This document shows positions 11,471-20,991 of a DNA stretch of 21,539 bases, one piece after another. The notes under the pieces were generated by a model. The model searched no databases. It saw only the letters and a list, made by a program, of their open reading frames with translations, and was not told the origin of the DNA. Source of the DNA: Dehalococcoidia bacterium. GTDB lineage: Bacteria; Chloroflexota; Dehalococcoidia; Dehalococcoidales; JAUWYK01. Location of the stretch: assembly GCA_030615865.1 (NCBI GenBank), contig JAUWYK010000027.1:1-21539 (forward strand), given 5' to 3'. Position numbers and translations under genes: made by a program. Each line of letters starts with the position of its first letter. Within the stretch, counting starts at the first letter, position 1.

Positions 11471-12508
11471 ATGAAGTACAAGAGTTATTTCAGAGTAGTA
11501 GCATTTTCTTTAGCATTAGCAATTGCTACCTCATTGCTGTTTGTCTCACCAGTTATGCTCCGCTACGCCCAAGCCAATGGCTATGGAGGTGTGGAGTGGG
11601 GTGGTGGGGGAGGTGGCGTAACATATCCTGGCCTGACTCTTCTAGGAAGCAGGATTAACTCTGAGGGAGTAATAACCGAAGATGTTACTGCTCTATCATC
11701 TGATGCGCGATGTTATCTAACGATAAATAAGGGCACAATGGCTCTAAACAAGTCGGGTAACCCCCTATACGGGATAATTATACTTGAGATGGAAGACCCA
11801 CCACCTCCGCCTGCAGGTTTCAGTATTGTTGGTTGCATTTGTGACTTTCTACCCGAAGGGGCTACCTTTGAGCCATCAGCAACCCTCACCATTACCTATG
11901 ACCCAGCTCTTTTGCCTAAGGGGGTTTCTTACAAATGCCTTGTCATAGCTATGTGGGATAAGGCAACTGGCAAGTGGGTTATACTGGATTCCACCGTTAA
12001 CACTAATACCGTCACCGCCCAAATAAGACACCTCACTGCTTTTGCCATTCTGGCTGGTACCGCTCCCGCTGTTTTTACTGTTACTGACCTCGCCATAGTT
12101 CCCGGTGAGGTTGGTATTGGGGAAAAGGTAACTATTAGCGCCCTTGTTAACAACACCGGTTACCTTAGCGAGAGCTATGAAGTAACCCTTAAGATAAATG
12201 ATGTAGTGGTAGCCACTGAAAAGGTAACGCTGCCTTGTCATGCCAGCCAGAAGGTAACCTTCGTCACAGCCAAGGATGTTGCCGGAACCTATAGTGTAGA
12301 TGTCAACGGTCTAGCTGGTACATTTGAGGTCAGGGAAGCACCGCCAGCACCAGCACCAGCACCACCTCCCCCACCCCCACCTGCACCACCCCCGCCTATA
12401 CCACCTCCTGCCGAACCATTTAACTGGTGGTTCATTGGCATTCCTATTGCTAGCTGCATGATTATCGGTATGGTTATCTGGCTAATAACTAGCCGCCGAA
12501 GAGCTTGA
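11471..12508 (+). CDS. Cell-surface protein with CARDB-like domain, proline stalk and C-terminal membrane anchor
   Basis: The 345-residue protein has a signal peptide (cleavage likely at AQA/NGY, after 35), then a glycine-rich stretch (38-49). A beta domain spans about 50-200, including GATFEPSATLTITYDPALLPKGV and RHLTAFAILAG. A CARDB-like Ig-fold domain covers about 202-289 (FTVTDLAIVPGEVGIGEKVTISALVNNTG...). Residues 289-315 are a proline/alanine stalk, followed by a transmembrane helix (about 319-341) and an SRRRA tail. The order secreted domains-stalk-helix-basic tail indicates an outward-facing anchored protein. It may act in adhesion or in presenting a surface layer; nothing shows an enzyme active site. 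It ends with tandem stops TGA TAG. Its export leader resembles that of the TPR protein upstream, suggesting leader sharing by duplication. Confidence 0.85.
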   Translation: MKYKSYFRVVAFSLALAIATSLLFVSPVMLRYAQANGYGGVEWGGGGGGVTYPGLTLLGSRINSEGVITEDVTALSSDARCYLTINKGTMALNKSGNPLYGIIILEMEDPPPPPAGFSIVGCICDFLPEGATFEPSATLTITYDPALLPKGVSYKCLVIAMWDKATGKWVILDSTVNTNTVTAQIRHLTAFAILAGTAPAVFTVTDLAIVPGEVGIGEKVTISALVNNTGYLSESYEVTLKINDVVVATEKVTLPCHASQKVTFVTAKDVAGTYSVDVNGLAGTFEVREAPPAPAPAPPPPPPPAPPPPIPPPAEPFNWWFIGIPIASCMIIGMVIWLITSRRRA

Positions 12509-14102: not shown

Positions 14103-15095
14103 CTAACCCAGCCCTCTATATAAAGCCTGAAAATCGAAGTATTGCTCCATAATTTCAGCGAGCTTGGGTAACTTCTTCTCCTGGTTAAATCTGGTCTTAC
14201 TCAGGGCGTCTTCAATACTCGTCACTGTAGTTATAGTATCACCTTTGACTAAAATAAGGGGGATGCCCTTATCCTCGGCTCTATAGACAACGTCAGGGAT
14301 TGGTGCCGTATTGCCACTGAGAATAAGGCATTTAGTTGACGTCTCTAGGGCTGCTAGTTGCATATCCGGGCGCTCACCCCTAACTACTACTGCCTTATTC
14401 GTTTTACGACCAAAGTATTGTGGACCAGGGTCGACACACATTGCCCCTAGCATAAAGTTGTCCACTAACTCTGCCGATTTCTCAGCGCAGTTAAGTATTT
14501 CCCCCTGAACATGCTCAGCCAGCTCACCTACAGTTAAGCTAAATAGCACCCTATCCTCAGGAAGCACCCCTAGAATATTTATCCCCCCCTCACCAAGCTG
14601 TGTAGATATCTCGTTACGAACCTGCTCCACCCGACCTCTTGGCACCTTGTTCAATACTACACCCAGTAAGTGTTCCTCAAAACCCTTACACTCATCGATA
14701 AACTTTGCCTTAGCTAATCCTTGGGAGTAACTCTCGACAAAAATCACCCTGGCATCCAGTGCCTCAACTATGCTCTGTTGGCTTATGCCCTCAATAATAA
14801 CCACATCTTTGCTCAGGGAAACCTTAGCATAGGCTTCCTTAACCTTGTTTGGCAAATTGCCCTGGTCACTAATAACTGGGCAAAGATGGTCTACAGGCTC
14901 ATCTAAAGCAAGAACATGCTTCATAAATGCAGCATCACTGTCAATACCTCCTATTGGCGGCTCTCCACCATCAGTGACAATCGGTTTTAAAAAGCCTACT
15001 TTCTTGCCATCTTCCACCAGACGCTTGCCTACGCCAGCGCAAATTGCCGTCTTACCGGCGAATCCTTCCAAAGAGGTTACATATAAAGCAACCAA
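14103..15095 (-). CDS. BioD-like/DRTGG-domain protein (phosphotransacetylase-associated family)
   Basis: The 330-residue protein joins a dethiobiotin-synthetase-like P-loop NTPase to a DRTGG domain, the architecture of the N-terminal part of long Pta enzymes, but without the catalytic Pta domain. The P-loop region is YVTSLEGFAGKTAICAG (about 5-21), with Ser where a glycine normally begins the loop. GFLKPI and VVIIEG follow. The DRTGG part covers roughly residues 190-290, with NFMLGAM and VVVRGERPDMQLAAL. A regulatory or nucleotide-sensing role is inferred, not shown. TTG at 15095 is preferred: it follows GGGGGTG, and a promoter at 15138-15166 lies inside the longer frame, which starts with an unlikely Cys-rich extension. 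Confidence 0.8.
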   Translation of the reverse strand: MVALYVTSLEGFAGKTAICAGVGKRLVEDGKKVGFLKPIVTDGGEPPIGGIDSDAAFMKHVLALDEPVDHLCPVISDQGNLPNKVKEAYAKVSLSKDVVIIEGISQQSIVEALDARVIFVESYSQGLAKAKFIDECKGFEEHLLGVVLNKVPRGRVEQVRNEISTQLGEGGINILGVLPEDRVLFSLTVGELAEHVQGEILNCAEKSAELVDNFMLGAMCVDPGPQYFGRKTNKAVVVRGERPDMQLAALETSTKCLILSGNTAPIPDVVYRAEDKGIPLILVKGDTITTVTSIEDALSKTRFNQEKKLPKLAEIMEQYFDFQALYRGLG

Positions 15096-15137
15096 GCTAC
15101 ACCCCCTACACTTTGTAAAATCTAAACATACCAGCCT

Positions 15138-15166
15138 ATTATAATCCCTCACACTCCATTGGTAAA
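15138..15166 (-). promoter_or_regulatory. Promoter of the BioD-like/DRTGG gene
   Basis: On the minus strand TTTACC (15161-15166), a 17-base spacer and TATAAT (15138-15143). The leader of about 36 bases contains GGGGGTG before TTG 15095. It is back-to-back with the pyr operon promoter. Confidence 0.7.
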
Positions 15167-15178
15167 GGCTTAGCCTTT
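15164..15178. promoter_or_regulatory. Palindrome overlapping a -35 element, possible operator
   Basis: AAAGGCT-T-AGCCTTT is a perfect 7-base inverted repeat with one central base. It overlaps the -35 hexamer of the DRTGG-gene promoter, a position where a repressor would block polymerase. It lies about 64 bases from the divergent pyr -35. Confidence 0.4.
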
Positions 15179-15241
15179 TACACCAGCTTGGTAAATTTTG
15201 ACAAATAGTAAAAGTTTCACACATATAACACATTTAAAATG

Positions 15242-15338: not shown

Positions 15339-15376
15339 GGATGTGAAAGAGACTAAAGAGCAAGACCTCTTGCCGG
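15330..15376 (+). promoter_or_regulatory. Antiterminator of the pyr attenuator
   Basis: CTGGCAAGGGG (15330-15340) can pair with CCTCTTGCCGG (15366-15376) over 11 positions including two G-U pairs. It uses the 3' arm of the PyrR hairpin and the 5' arm of the terminator, so the three structures are mutually exclusive. Confidence 0.8.
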
Positions 15377-15396
15377 CGAAGGTAAGAGGTGTTTTT
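15365..15396 (+). terminator. Attenuator terminator before pyrR, also sequestering its ribosome-binding site
   Basis: ACCTCTTGCC (15365-15374) pairs with GGTAAGAGGT (15381-15390), ten pairs with one G-U, around GGCGAA, followed by GTTTTT. The ATG of pyrR comes directly after the T-run. The ribosome-binding site AAGAGGTG is in the 3' arm, so the hairpin could block translation as well as transcription. Confidence 0.85.
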
Positions 15397-16005
15397 ATGC
15401 CTAAGAAAGTCATAATGACCCCAGAGGACATCAGACGAACTCTGGCTCGTATTGCCCATGAAATTATAGAGCGAAATAAAACTATCGAGCATCTGATACT
15501 GGTTGGCATGCACACTCGTGGTGTGCCCCTGGCTAAGCGGCTAGCCGCCAATATAAAAGATTTTGAGACATTAAGAATACCTGTCGGTGCGCTAGACATT
15601 AGCTTCTATCGGGATGACCTTTCCTCACTAAATCCGCAACCTGTCATCAAAGGCACCAATATTCCGACAAGCATTGATGACAAATCTATAGTGTTAGTTG
15701 ATGACGTCCTATATACCGGACGCAGTACCCGCGCCGCTATGGATGCCCTCATTGACCTGGGACGACCTCAATCAGTTCAATTAGCTGTCCTTATAGACCG
15801 TGGGCACCGCGAGATGCCGATACGAGCTGACTATGTCGGTAAGAATATACCAAGCTCCAGACATGAGGAAATACAGGTTCAACTGGTAGAAACTGATGGC
15901 ATAGATGAGGTAGCAATTACAAGCTCAGCTAACGATAAGCCTCCCACCAGTGAATTGAGCAAAGCAGGCTACCTCAAAAGGAGTGACCATGGCTCTGGTA
16001 AATAG
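15397..16005 (+). CDS. pyrR: Pyrimidine operon regulator PyrR (bifunctional, uracil phosphoribosyltransferase fold)
   Basis: RNA-binding attenuation protein that senses UMP/UTP and PRPP; characterised PyrRs also have uracil phosphoribosyltransferase activity. The 202 residues show [36 protein letters not shown], and DISFYRDDL. The PRPP loop is [22 protein letters not shown], followed by [23 protein letters not shown]. About 20 extra C-terminal residues (after VAITS) exceed the usual length of about 180. ATG at 15397 follows AAGAGGTG at eight bases. GTG at 15343 is in frame and would add 18 residues across the attenuator. The gene overlaps pyrB by 17 bases. Its own binding site lies in the leader, so it should control the whole operon by feedback. 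Confidence 0.95.
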
Positions 16006-17434
16006 AAGTCTGGTGACCATAGATGATTTTTCTAACGGTGAAATAGAGGCAGTATTTTCCTTGGCTGATACAATGGCAGGCTCTATGGACGAGCAGTTTG
16101 GTATATGCCAGGGCAAGATTATGGCAAGCCTGTTTTTTGAGCCTAGCACCAGGACACGGCTTTCATTTGAGGCAGCAATGCACAGGCTTGGGGGTAGTGT
16201 CATAAGTGCCGTCGATATACAGGCAACTTCGCTGGCAAAAGGTGAAAGCATCGCTGATATGGCGAGAGTGGTCGGGAGTTATGCCGACATAATTGTCATT
16301 AGACACCCGTGGGAGGGAGCCGCCAAGGTAGTTGCTGACTACGCTGGCATCCCGGTAATAAATGCCGGTGACGGAGGTCATCAACATCCAACCCAGACCC
16401 TGTGCGACCTCTACACCATCAAGAAGGAAAGGCAAACTATCAAGGGGCTAAAAATCTCTCTCTGGGGAGACCTGAAATATGGGCGAACGATACATTCCCT
16501 AATCTTCGCTCTGGCTAGGTTCGGTGCTACCATTCTCTTTCGCCCGGCACCAGGTCTTGAGGTACCGAAGCATATTATAGAAAAACTAACCGCAGAATAC
16601 GGTGGCGAACTGAAAAGGTATGAAGCCCTAGACCAAGCGGTCAAAGGAGGTCTTTTCCCCCTGGATGCCATATATATAACGCCAAGTAGTCCCCATCAAC
16701 TGGCAATGATACCCGACATCAGTATTCAAGTCGAGCTGAAGACAGGGGTTGACGCCTTTTATGTTACCAGACCTCAGAAAGAGAGATTCGCCACTGCTGA
16801 AGAAGAGCAAGACCTGAAGGAGGGCTACCCAGTAGTAGATAAAAAACTCCTTAAACAAAAGGAATTCAAGAGGACCCTTATTATGCACCCATTGCCCCGC
16901 GTTGATGAGTTAGCCTACGAACTGGATGCTGACCCGCGGAGTATGTACTTTAAACAAGCAGCTTGGGGAGTGCCGGTCAGAATGGCACTCATAGCCCTGC
17001 TACTTGGAACTAAGGAAGTTTCTGTTCCGAGAGAAGAAGATGAATCTTTTGCCCGGGAAATAGACTATCCCCTGTATAAGCGAGATTTTGGCATCAAGTG
17101 CCCCAACCCAAGGTGTGTGTCAATACAGGAAACTGAAACAAAGTATATCAAGCCTGAGTTTAAAATAGTAAACCGTGAGCCGTTGACCCTAAGGTGTATC
17201 TATTGCGAGCATGGATTCGAGCCCAAATATGTCGCCAGTTCAGATTGGCATGAGGGCAGATTGGCAAACAAAAAATATCATAGCGCTGACAGTCATTTAG
17301 CGAGAAAAATAAAACCGGAGAATCTGATTGTCTTCAATTCAGAAAGTGAAGCCGAGGCTCGTGGTTTCAAGCCCAGCTACTATGCCAAAGCACGTCAGGA
17401 GAGAAAGAAGGGAAGGGCGAGCAAAAAGCAATGA
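15989..17434 (+). CDS. pyrB: Aspartate carbamoyltransferase fused to PyrI-type zinc ribbon and Ada-like tail
   Basis: Commits carbamoyl phosphate and aspartate to pyrimidine synthesis. The catalytic part (residues 1 to about 345) has [13 protein letters not shown] (49-61), SLAKGES (81-87), [18 protein letters not shown] (128-144), [10 protein letters not shown] (258-267) and HPLPRVDE (300-307). Residues about 226-256 look like an insertion before YVTR. Residues 371-406 carry CPNPRC (Cys371, Cys376) and CIYC (Cys403, Cys406), matching the zinc-binding C-terminus of PyrI (CxxxxC, CxxC), but no PyrI nucleotide-binding domain is present. Residues about 427-468 look like an Ada metal-binding domain with all four ligands replaced. 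The 481-residue length far exceeds the usual roughly 310. ATG 15989 follows AAAGGAG. It overlaps pyrR and pyrC. Confidence 0.95.
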
Positions 17435-18777
17435 AACCCTTGCTTATCCAAGGTGGTCGCATAATCGACCCCAGCCAGGGGATAGATGAAACTGGCAGTT
17501 TGCTTATCACTGACGGCAAAATCTCGTGGCTGGGCAGAGGAGAAATAACCCCACCCCAGCCAGATTATGATGTCCTTCACGCGCAAGGGCTAATAGTCTG
17601 CCCTGGATTTGTTGACCTGCACTGCCATCTTAGACAGCCAGGGTTTGAGGAGAAGGAAACCATTGCTACCGGAACCAAAGCTGCCGCCAGAGGTGGCTTT
17701 ACCACTGTCTGCTGTATGCCTAATACTGAGCCGCCACTGGACAATCAAACTGTTGTAGATTATGTAAAATCAATTGCAGCTAAAAAAGGCGTAGTTCGTG
17801 TTCTGCCTATAGGCTGTATCTCCAAGGGCAGAAGGGGGGAGGAGTTAGCTGAGATGGACGAGTTAGCCTCAGCCGGGGTAATTGCCTACAGCGATGATGG
17901 CGAACCAGCCCTAGACTCACGCCTTATACGCCAGGCACTAGATTATAGCCGTGCTTCTGGCTTGCCGATTATTGACCACTGTGAGGATATGTCCCTAACT
18001 AAAGGTGGGCAGATGAACGAAGGCATAATATCTACCAGATTAGGGCTTCAAGGGATACCAAATGCCGCTGAGGAAATTATAGTTGCCCGCGACCTGGCTC
18101 TGGCTCAACTAACCGGGGGGCGACTGCACATCGCCCATACCACTACCGAAGGCTCAGTTGAACTTATTCGTCATGCCAAGGGTAAAGGCATTAAGGTTAC
18201 CGCTGAGGTTACACCACACCACCTGACCCTGACCGAGGAGAAGGTCACCGGCTATGATACCAACGCCAAGGTAAATCCACCGTTGAGAACTAAAAAGGAC
18301 ATCCAAGCCTTAATTCAGGGGCTCAAGGAAAATGTGATTGACATTATTGCTACTGACCATGCCCCCCATACTGAGGCTGATAAGCAGTGTGATTTTGCCC
18401 TGGCTCCCTTCGGCATTAGTAGTTTTGAAACCGCCCTGGGCAGTCTTATGAGTCTGGTACGCAATGGACAGCTACCCTTGACCACCCTTATCGCCAAGCT
18501 CACCTATGAACCAGCCAGGATTATTGGCAATAAATTTGGCGAATTGGGCACATTGGCTATCGGAGCACCGGCTGATGTTACTATCTTTGACCCTGATATG
18601 GACTGGGTGGTAGATACCAAGGCTTTTGCCTCAAAGGGCAAGAATACTCCCCTGGCTGGCTCGGTGCTTAAAGACAAGGTAATGGCAACTATATCTCGGG
18701 GGAAGCTAGTTTATAAAGACGACTCTATTACTGTAAAGGAGAGGGGGATCAAAGGGGGAGAGGTAGATAAATCATAA
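17431..18777 (+). CDS. pyrC: Dihydroorotase (type I)
   Basis: Cyclises N-carbamoyl-L-aspartate to dihydroorotate, the third step of UMP synthesis. The 448-residue amidohydrolase has the metal ligands DLHCHLRQPG (His64, His66), SDDGEPA (154-160; Asp as bridging ligand), HCED (His183), HIAHTTTE (His236) and ATDHAPHT (Asp309). PHHLTLTEE and NPPLRTKKD are also intact. The ATG at 17431 overlaps the pyrB stop as ATGA, so the two are translationally coupled. The last 12 residues or so (KERGIKGGEVDKS) are encoded by purine-rich repeat-like DNA (18733-18775) resembling spacers in the rib operon. Otherwise the length and motifs are standard for the long bacterial form. Confidence 0.97.
   Translation: MKPLLIQGGRIIDPSQGIDETGSLLITDGKISWLGRGEITPPQPDYDVLHAQGLIVCPGFVDLHCHLRQPGFEEKETIATGTKAAARGGFTTVCCMPNTEPPLDNQTVVDYVKSIAAKKGVVRVLPIGCISKGRRGEELAEMDELASAGVIAYSDDGEPALDSRLIRQALDYSRASGLPIIDHCEDMSLTKGGQMNEGIISTRLGLQGIPNAAEEIIVARDLALAQLTGGRLHIAHTTTEGSVELIRHAKGKGIKVTAEVTPHHLTLTEEKVTGYDTNAKVNPPLRTKKDIQALIQGLKENVIDIIATDHAPHTEADKQCDFALAPFGISSFETALGSLMSLVRNGQLPLTTLIAKLTYEPARIIGNKFGELGTLAIGAPADVTIFDPDMDWVVDTKAFASKGKNTPLAGSVLKDKVMATISRGKLVYKDDSITVKERGIKGGEVDKS
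18749..18775 (+). repeat. Diverged copy of the 26-base repeat, inside the pyrC 3' end
   Basis: The segment reads AAAGGGGGAGAGGTAGATAA and so resembles 5293-5318 and the minus strand of 1653-1678 with several changes. It encodes the last residues of PyrC and supplies the only purine-rich candidate ribosome-binding site for carA. Confidence 0.45.
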
Positions 18778-18778
18778 G

Positions 18779-19873
18779 ATGACTAAACGGGCAATATTAG
18801 TCTTGGAAGACGGCTCAGTCTATGAAGGCTACTGCTTCGGTGCTGAGGCTAGTGCCTATGGCGAGGTGGTATTCAATACCAGCATGGTGGGATATCAAGA
18901 GATGCTAACCGACCCCTCTTATGCCGGACAGATTGTGGTTCCCACCTATCCCCTCATTGGCAACTACGGCATCAATGAGCAGGACTTTGAATCAAAGAAA
19001 ATACAGGTAAGGGGCTTTGTGGTAAGGGAGGAGTGTTACCAGCCCAATCACTACCTCAGCACCAAGACCCTCCATGAATTTCTGGCAGAAAGTGGTATAC
19101 CCGGAATTTATGGCGTGGATACCCGCGCCATTACCCGCAAGCTTCGCTCAGCCGGAGTAATGATGGGCATGATAACCAGCGATAAGACTCCACAGCAGGC
19201 TCTGGAAGAGTTAGGCAAAGTGCCCGGCTATGGCTCAATTGATTATGTAAAGCAGGTTACTACTGATGCTCCCTACCAGTGGGAGCCAGAATTGAACGAG
19301 ACTGCACCAGCACACCATATAGTTGTCATTGACTGTGGCTTAAAATACAGCATCCTCCGCACTCTGCGCCGAATGGGCTGTGCGGTGACTGCAGTCCCCT
19401 GCATTATGTCAGCCAATAAAATCCTAAATCTGAAACCCGATGGTATTCTTCTATCCCCAGGTCCTGGTAACCCCGAGCTACTGGATTACATAGTGGACAC
19501 GGTTAAGAAGCTCGTTGGCAAGAAGCCGATTATGGGTATCTGCCTTGGTAATCAAATAATTGCTCGAGCCCTTGGTGCCAGGACCTTCAAGCTGAAGTTT
19601 GGTCATCGTGGGGCTAACCACCCCGTCCGGGACCTGGCTACCGGTCAAGTTTATATTACTGCTCAAAATCACGGCTATGCGGTAGACCCTGATAGTCTCA
19701 AAGACAGTCTGGGGGTTACCCATATAAACCTGAACGACGGCACGGTAGAGGGGATGCGCCACAAAGAACTGCCCGTCTTTTGTATCCAGTACCACTCCGA
19801 AGCCTCCCCCGGCCCCTGGGACAGCACCTATCTGTTTAAAGAGTTTGTGGAGATGGTGAGGGGGGAGAAATGA
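18779..19873 (+). CDS. carA: Carbamoyl-phosphate synthase, small (glutaminase) subunit
   Basis: Hydrolyses glutamine and channels ammonia to CarB for carbamoyl phosphate. The 364-residue protein has the CPSase small-chain N-terminal domain (LVLEDGSVYEGYCFGA...GEVVFNTSMVGYQEMLTDPSYAGQ) and a class I glutamine amidotransferase domain. The latter carries LLSPGPGNP (224-232), nucleophile Cys255 in GICLGNQ, and the His339/Glu341 pair in QYHSEASPGP. The ATG is one base after the pyrC stop. The purine-rich GGGGGAGAGG lies about 14-24 bases upstream, somewhat far. The stop overlaps the next gene's start as ATGA. In most bacteria carB would follow directly, so the following gene is an insertion into a standard junction. 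Confidence 0.97.
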   Translation: MTKRAILVLEDGSVYEGYCFGAEASAYGEVVFNTSMVGYQEMLTDPSYAGQIVVPTYPLIGNYGINEQDFESKKIQVRGFVVREECYQPNHYLSTKTLHEFLAESGIPGIYGVDTRAITRKLRSAGVMMGMITSDKTPQQALEELGKVPGYGSIDYVKQVTTDAPYQWEPELNETAPAHHIVVIDCGLKYSILRTLRRMGCAVTAVPCIMSANKILNLKPDGILLSPGPGNPELLDYIVDTVKKLVGKKPIMGICLGNQIIARALGARTFKLKFGHRGANHPVRDLATGQVYITAQNHGYAVDPDSLKDSLGVTHINLNDGTVEGMRHKELPVFCIQYHSEASPGPWDSTYLFKEFVEMVRGEK

Positions 19874-20991
19874 ATTCTACATTAGAATCTTTTCAGCACC
19901 TAAAACGTCTCTACTCACCTGACTTTTCAGCATCTCTGTCAGAAGACAGTTTCTTATACAGGCTTCTGACTGAGCAACGAACAGAGGCAGAGATATGGCG
20001 ACAACACATAGACGATTGCTTAGAGCTAGCTTACAGATACAATTTGGTAGACGCTGATTTAGAGGCTAGATTAAGAAAGGGCGATTGGGAGTCTTGGGAA
20101 GCAGCCATAAACGAGCTAAAAGTTGGCAAATTTTTGGAGAATCTCTTTGGAGTTAGCTCTTTGCGCTGGCGTCCTCAGGGGCGAGGAAGAAGAGTTGGGG
20201 AATTTGAAGTTGTTTTAAGTGATTTAGATATTACTATTTTCGTTGAGGTCAAAACCATTTTACTTAGAGATTTAGAGAATTTAGAGCAGCGTGTATTTGA
20301 TAAACTAAGGCGTTGTATTAAAAAAGTACCCCTTCCATTTATCCTCTCTGTTCAGTTAAGAAATGCAGGTCAAACAGAGAACTTCAGCGAAAGACGTCTG
20401 AAGGGATTTCTTGTACGAGAACTGAGCAAATGCAGCACGGAAGACACGGAAAAGCATTACGAACTTCCTGATTACCAAGACATGACAGGATTGCATCTTG
20501 AAATCCAGGCTTATCCAAATCCAAAGCGTAGGACTTGTCTCCTTGGCGCTTGCGGCTATAATGTCAGGATGATGAATAATGCAGAATATGTAAAGCATTC
20601 ACTCAGCAAAGCCTACGAAAAATTAGCTAATGGAGATAAACGCTCAATAGTCGTATTATGTCCTTCACCAAATTATTTGATTGATGAGTATGACATCCTG
20701 AATGCCTTATTGGGAACCAAAGTATTTACTGTGACCATGAGCGGTGATGGATCGGTAATAGATACAAAAACATCTCGTAAACCTGACGGATTCTTTCAGC
20801 TTAAGCATAAGCAAAAGTTAAGCCTAGTCGGAGTTTATAAAGAACGTTTTACTGAAGACGCAATAAGAGGAGACTTGGAATTATACCATAATCCGCTCAC
20901 AGTAAATCCGCTTGATGATTCCATTTTTAAGGGAAAAGGTGTGCGCCAATTGGTTAAAGTGAGTGACAAAGAAATGGGGTGGATTAATTAA
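19870..20991 (+). CDS. Unrecognised protein with PD-(D/E)XK nuclease-like signature, inserted between carA and carB
   Basis: I do not recognise a named family for this 373-residue protein. Residues 78-130 carry a restriction-endonuclease-fold pattern: an acidic helix [11 protein letters not shown] (Glu82), then [16 protein letters not shown] (Glu111/Glu113), then [10 protein letters not shown] with Glu126-x-Lys128. That is the E...(D/E)...ExK arrangement. A mostly helical N-terminus (1-75) and a mixed C-terminal half with no second known motif surround it; there is no signal peptide or membrane segment. Translation is coupled to carA through ATGA, using GGGGGGAG inside the carA end. Base composition is low: one 60-base line (20221-20280) has 16 G+C, against 34 in the last full line of carA and 40 in one line of carB, suggesting recent transfer. 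Nuclease activity is inference. Confidence 0.8.

Follow-up and report, generated by a model that had tools for sequence, protein, structure and literature searches.

The window analysed here is a 21,539-nucleotide stretch of a Dehalococcoidia bacterium genome (contig JAUWYK010000027.1, assembly GCA_030615865.1), which carries the gene order pyrR-pyrB-pyrC-carA. Its pyrB gene encodes aspartate carbamoyltransferase (ATCase), the textbook allosteric, feedback-controlled enzyme of pyrimidine synthesis. In this protein, the catalytic chain is followed on the same polypeptide by a zinc ribbon of the type by which the regulatory chain PyrI is normally attached to the catalytic chain and by a tail related to the Ada metal-binding domain. 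The start of pyrB is taken as the ATG at 15989, while the open reading frame (ORF) tool lists a GTG 6 bases upstream, at 15983; translated from the ATG, C371 is encoded from position 17099 on, and 17434 is the last base of the stop codon. The parts of the gene are as follows.

15989..17434, plus strand: pyrB, 481 residues, ATCase catalytic chain with PyrI zinc ribbon and Ada-like tail (TIGR00670 match)
15989..17008, plus strand: ATCase catalytic domain, residues 1-340, active-site R54, R105, R229 and Q231 (E. coli numbering) retained
16313..16327, plus strand: E109 and K113 of the catalytic chain, on the side that contacts the zinc ribbon in the E. coli enzyme (alignment)
16601..16744, plus strand: insertion, residues 205-252, about 33 residues longer than in P. 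abyssi ATCase (alignment; model confidence partly low)
17009..17086, plus strand: variable linker, residues 341-366, mean identity 0.48 (family alignment)
17093..17221, plus strand: PyrI-type zinc ribbon, residues 369-411, ligands C371, C376, C403 and C406 (PF02748)
17222..17263, plus strand: conserved bridge, residues 412-425 (SSDWHEG), missing from the tail-less clade (family alignment)
17264..17386, plus strand: cysteine-less Ada-like ('sunset') domain, residues 426-466 (profile comparison, NF051437, PF02805)

The catalytic part is complete: TIGR00670, the family of the ATCase catalytic chain, is matched at 314 bits (cut-off 236.95), and both carbamoyltransferase domains are found by Pfam. 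The four residues R54, R105, R229 and Q231, which we take to be active-site positions, are each present in 33/33 tail-bearing rows of the alignment used for the tree, including the window protein. The insertion sits just before the TRxQKER strand, where P. abyssi has 15 residues in place of residues 205-252, and within it a 12-residue stretch resembles, by eye, the 12 residues after it.

The ribbon is matched by PF02748 (PyrI_C) at residues 369-411 with an E value of 7e-11 and 42.2 bits, above the cut-off of 23.4. A sequence-only reading of this DNA had claimed a PyrI zinc ribbon after a complete ATCase chain, with the PyrI nucleotide-binding domain missing, and both points hold, the former at the coordinates it had given and the latter in that Pfam finds no match to PF01948, the nucleotide-binding domain, in the window PyrB at E ≤ 10. 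The ligand spacing is C371-x4-C376-x26-C403-x2-C406, compared with x4, x23 and x2 in E. coli PyrI (from L123). A family alignment was built from 61 members, i.e., the window protein, 38 loci of a genome scan and 22 of 119 other listed proteins, picked for diversity and thus non-random; PyrI_C scores above its cut-off in 61/61 of them, and the four ribbon cysteines and N373 are invariant in all 61 as well as in the 33/33 tail-bearing and 6/6 tail-less rows of the tree set. The mean identity is 0.80 in the ribbon and 0.73 in the Ada-like domain, compared with 0.48 in the linker and 0.15 at the extreme C-terminus, so that the ribbon and the Ada-like domain are both under selection. In the PDB, a sequence search with the single tail returned PyrI chains only (1pg5_B, at 3.3e-5, being the best of 11 distinct sequences at E ≤ 10), and a profile of 43 tails returned 12 PyrI sequences and one weak ferredoxin (E 6), with no Ada chain. 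The PyrI zinc part scored 39.5 against the family profile, compared with at most 20.9 in 100 shuffles. Families that describe longer arrangements are not reached: TIGR00240, for the whole PyrI chain, gives 28.4 bits (cut-off 148.55), and NF009916, for fused PyrB-PyrI, gives 97.7 bits (cut-off 800), a score which comes from the catalytic part.

The residues at the expected contact between ribbon and catalytic chain were compared with those of E. coli ATCase. In the E. coli enzyme, rAsn111 is described as bonding cGlu109 in the R state (PMC6056424), and rAsn111, rAsn113, rGlu142 and rLys143 are listed at the catalytic-regulatory interface (PMC6981877). On the ribbon side, N373 corresponds to rAsn111 and is found in 39/39 ribbon-bearing rows, and the rGlu142 equivalent is E or D in 38/39; the rAsn113 position is variable, and rLys143 is not conserved, being H in 28/33 tail rows. 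On the catalytic side, c109 is acidic and c113 is basic in 38/39 ribbon-bearing rows each, with L078 the exception to both, and the same pattern is found in 2/2 PyrI-partnered chains. By comparison, among ribbon-less carbamoyltransferases of the class, whatever their exact substrate, c109 is acidic in 1/8 and c113 is basic in 1/8 (8 of 9 fetched sequences were used). An independent control agrees: the PyrI-partnered chains of P. abyssi, M. jannaschii and Sulfolobus have E, E and D, respectively, at c109 and R at c113, whereas human CAD, lacking a PyrI partner, carries P at c109 and E at c113. These patterns speak for a ribbon that docks in the manner of E. coli ATCase, but the contrast between ribbon-bearing and ribbon-less members of the class is confounded by kinship.

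The tail is weakly recognizable in the single sequence. PF02805 (Ada_Zn_binding) gives 12.5 bits and an E value of 0.15 at residues 438-463 (cut-off 23), and the 'sunset' family NF051437 gives 18.4 bits at residues 426-463 (cut-off 27), so that neither cut-off is reached by the window protein. Other members reach them: the divergent L073 passes PF02805 with 24.4 bits (E 2.9e-5), L077 falls just under at 22.9, and three members, in G144, G026 and G022, pass NF051437 with 28.4, 27.4 and 27.1 bits, respectively. At E ≤ 1, sunset is matched by 56/61 aligned members (best 3e-6) and Ada by 40/61 (best 0.002). The 43-tail profile was also compared by hhalign with L145, an Ada-type methyltransferase (PF02805 58.6 bits) of G025, a genome that also encodes the fused ATCase, giving 42 gapless columns and an E value of 1.1e-8. 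The corresponding score of 56.7 was reached by 0/100 shuffles, the highest being 17.9; against E. coli Ada the score was 29.7, compared with at most 22.0 in 100 shuffles. A chance likeness of the tail to Ada is thus rejected, since all shuffle scores lie below the real score. The Ada C1-C3 positions correspond to H431, S435 and S463, and C4 corresponds to A466, three residues beyond the aligned block; S435 is present in 61/61 members, H431 in 58/61 (the other 3 have Tyr) and S463 in 53/61. The proposal that each metal-binding Cys of an Ada-type domain is replaced here by His, Ser, Ser and Ala is thereby borne out by the hhalign value, the shuffles and L073, and the profile searches that had been set as its refuting test matched both PyrI and Ada families. 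As a family, the tail is therefore solidly identified from its profiles as a relative of the Ada metal-binding domain. The fold matches of the tail model include the DNA-bound Ada structures 1u8b and 1zgw, and a full-length fold search gave catalytic chains only and is uninformative on the tail. The sunset domain was also considered as a general ribosomal-protein tag, and this was rejected, as its 10 matches in 25 genomes are 8 ATCases, 1 Ada-type methyltransferase and 1 nuclease. That nuclease, a Staphylococcal-nuclease homologue (L144:141-986, in G114), matches the sunset family at its C-terminus with 48.8 bits, and the ATCase of the same genome has a divergent Ada-like tail.

The ATCase-ribbon-tail architecture is real and conserved in Dehalococcoidia. 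The tail is common to 1220 of 1296 candidate clustered proteins at E ≤ 0.001, and all 44 loci from the genome scan, which used two peptide patterns and is non-exhaustive, are titled Dehalococcoidia, Dehalococcoidales, Dehalococcoides or Chloroflexi. PF02748 occurs in 51/245 sampled Dehalococcoidia genomes, and a whole-protein search found a catalytic chain of the window type in 54/245, i.e., the same 51 and G244, G086 and G217, in which the gene is broken off, either by the edge of its contig or by a run of N. G217 was considered as a case of a ribbon-less ATCase and rejected, as its gene enters a stretch of N. Across the phylum, 14 of 400 genomes match, of which 13 had already been counted and one, G439, lies outside the fused group and has separate pyrB, pyrI and pyrC in a row. 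Used as queries, a tail-less ribbon and the divergent tail of L077 returned 3 proteins each, and the two with a named source (P0123 and P0125) are from Dehalococcoidia. PF01948 was found in 0/44 genomes with close relatives and 0/245 genomes of the class, two overlapping sets of which the assembly completeness is not stated, compared with 7/14 in a control, the phylum as a whole not being searched; for these related genomes, the absence of a separate PyrI nucleotide-binding partner, on which the sequence-only reading depended, is upheld. The architecture is apparently previously undescribed, as no description of a PyrB-ribbon-tail fusion was found in the open-licence literature.

A second form of the protein lacks the tail. 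Seven loci (L065-L071, three of which were scanned for families) have the ribbon and end at about 390-420 residues, showing that the ribbon persists without both the tail and the nucleotide-binding domain. In the tree, which used six of the seven, these loci form one clade with support of 100/99. The tail-bearing group has support of only 44/29 and is not firmly one clade, so that by this tree the tail may have been either gained or lost.

The genes around pyrB belong to the same pathway.

15343..16005, plus strand: pyrR, pyr operon regulator / uracil phosphoribosyltransferase, immediately before pyrB and overlapping it (NF003549, 254.6 bits, cut-off 138)
17431..18777, plus strand: pyrC, dihydroorotase, its start overlapping the pyrB stop in ATGA (TIGR00857, 444.1 bits, cut-off 279.05)
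18779..19873, plus strand: carA, carbamoyl-phosphate synthase small subunit (TIGR01368, 496.9 bits, cut-off 307.35)

Among loci with enough flank, in counts that include some genomes twice, PyrR is encoded upstream in 47/52 (missing in L078 and the tail-less L068-L071) and PyrC downstream in 65/72 (missing in the tail-less L065, L066, L067, L068 and L071 and the tail-bearing L073 and L078). An Rfam search gave no match, and so no PyrR RNA target.

Beyond the identity of the domains, their conservation and the absence of the nucleotide-binding domain, we infer as most probable, for this class-II ATCase with the PyrI ribbon in cis, that the ribbon stabilises the trimer, that control by cytidine triphosphate (CTP) and adenosine triphosphate (ATP) has been lost and that PyrR takes over control. 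The zinc-loaded ribbon would dock on a catalytic chain, either its own or a neighbour, at the carbamoyl-phosphate face through a contact of the rAsn111-cGlu109 type, and the docked ribbon would act as a built-in buttress that holds the trimer in one activity state. Because the PyrI nucleotide-binding domain is missing, the enzyme would be insensitive to CTP and ATP, and without the PyrI dimer contact no classical c6r6 assembly is expected. Control of pyrimidine synthesis would pass to PyrR, encoded directly upstream, and so be transcriptional instead of effector-based. The tail is a weaker step: it may be a captured Ada-type domain that binds no zinc through the Ada site and is used for protein contact, and its function in oligomerisation or partner binding is a guess. 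It is only tentatively that we extend this to a distinct ATCase holoenzyme, in which the ribbon would be a permanent cis lock of the trimer and the metal-less Ada domain would replace the nucleotide-binding domain and join trimers or recruit PyrC.

Among other explanations, the ribbon and tail might primarily scaffold a complex with PyrC (or carbamoyl-phosphate synthase) that channels intermediates, with trimer stabilisation not the primary role. Among loci with enough sequence, the gene pyrC lies directly 3' of pyrB in 65/67 tail-bearing and 0/5 tail-less ones, and an ATCase-dihydroorotase complex of six and six subunits is described for Aquifex aeolicus (PMC3880350). However, the tail-less loci are a single clade, so the association may reflect a single event, besides the double counting of some genomes; adjacency of pyr genes is common anyway, and the tail-bearing L078 has no adjoining pyrC. 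We regard this scaffold as possible and rather unlikely. A similarly doubtful place is given to a tail that substitutes for the missing domain, as a new module for oligomerisation or regulation that links two catalytic trimers or senses a ligand: the tail is as conserved as the catalytic parts, and sunset domains without Cys occur on other proteins (NCBIfam ribosomal variants are among the matches), but the tail-less clade manages without it.

It is improbable that the tail, like the Ada domain, binds nucleic acid (DNA or RNA), making this a moonlighting ATCase. Its relationship to the N-terminal domain of Ada, with DNA-bound structures among the fold matches, and its basic C-terminus would fit, but the four metal-binding cysteines are lost and that basic C-terminus shows the lowest conservation of any part. 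Still less credence is due to the ribbon being a functionless fossil; its usual partner domain is missing, yet its cysteines are invariant, its identity exceeds that of the linker and it is retained in the tail-less clade too. A separate pyrI gene that pairs with the fused chain is the least probable of all: G439 shows a separate pyrI within the phylum, but outside the fused group, and for the sampled genomes such a gene is rejected by the PF01948 counts.

Compared with the PyrBI ATCase of E. coli (class B, PyrB6-PyrI6), the window PyrB has its ribbon fused to the C-terminus of the catalytic chain, lacks the nucleotide-binding domain and has the extra Ada-like tail. The fused PyrB-PyrI family NF009916, which we take to be the Thermotoga and Treponema type, likewise joins a catalytic and a PyrI part in a single polypeptide, but it retains the nucleotide-binding domain; the window chain might, as the sequence-only reading proposed, be a reduced version of such a fusion. 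A further parallel is artificial: the Schachman laboratory reportedly combined, in 1991, the E. coli catalytic trimer with an isolated 70-residue PyrI zinc polypeptide, i.e., a catalytic trimer with the zinc domain alone and no effector domain. That system was engineered from E. coli components, whereas the window fusion is natural and covalent. The role of the ribbon alone has so far been approached via engineered fragments, and a natural, conserved ATCase with the coupling element and without the effector sensor makes it directly addressable. The tail is like PF02805 and NF051437 in profile homology and unlike them in having no cysteine ligands and in standing on a metabolic enzyme, and would thus represent a DNA-repair domain reused on a central metabolic enzyme after loss of its metal site.

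Three further genes of the window were observed. A 373-residue ORF (19870-20991), after carA and overlapping its end, has no Pfam (E ≤ 0.01) or NCBIfam (E ≤ 1e-4) match. A 345-residue protein (11471-12508) matches CARDB below threshold; by eye, it also contains a stretch rich in proline and, C-terminally, a hydrophobic segment. Divergent from pyrR on the minus strand (14106-15233), a protein with AAA_26 and DRTGG domains resembles long phosphate acetyltransferases in their N-terminal part but lacks the catalytic one.
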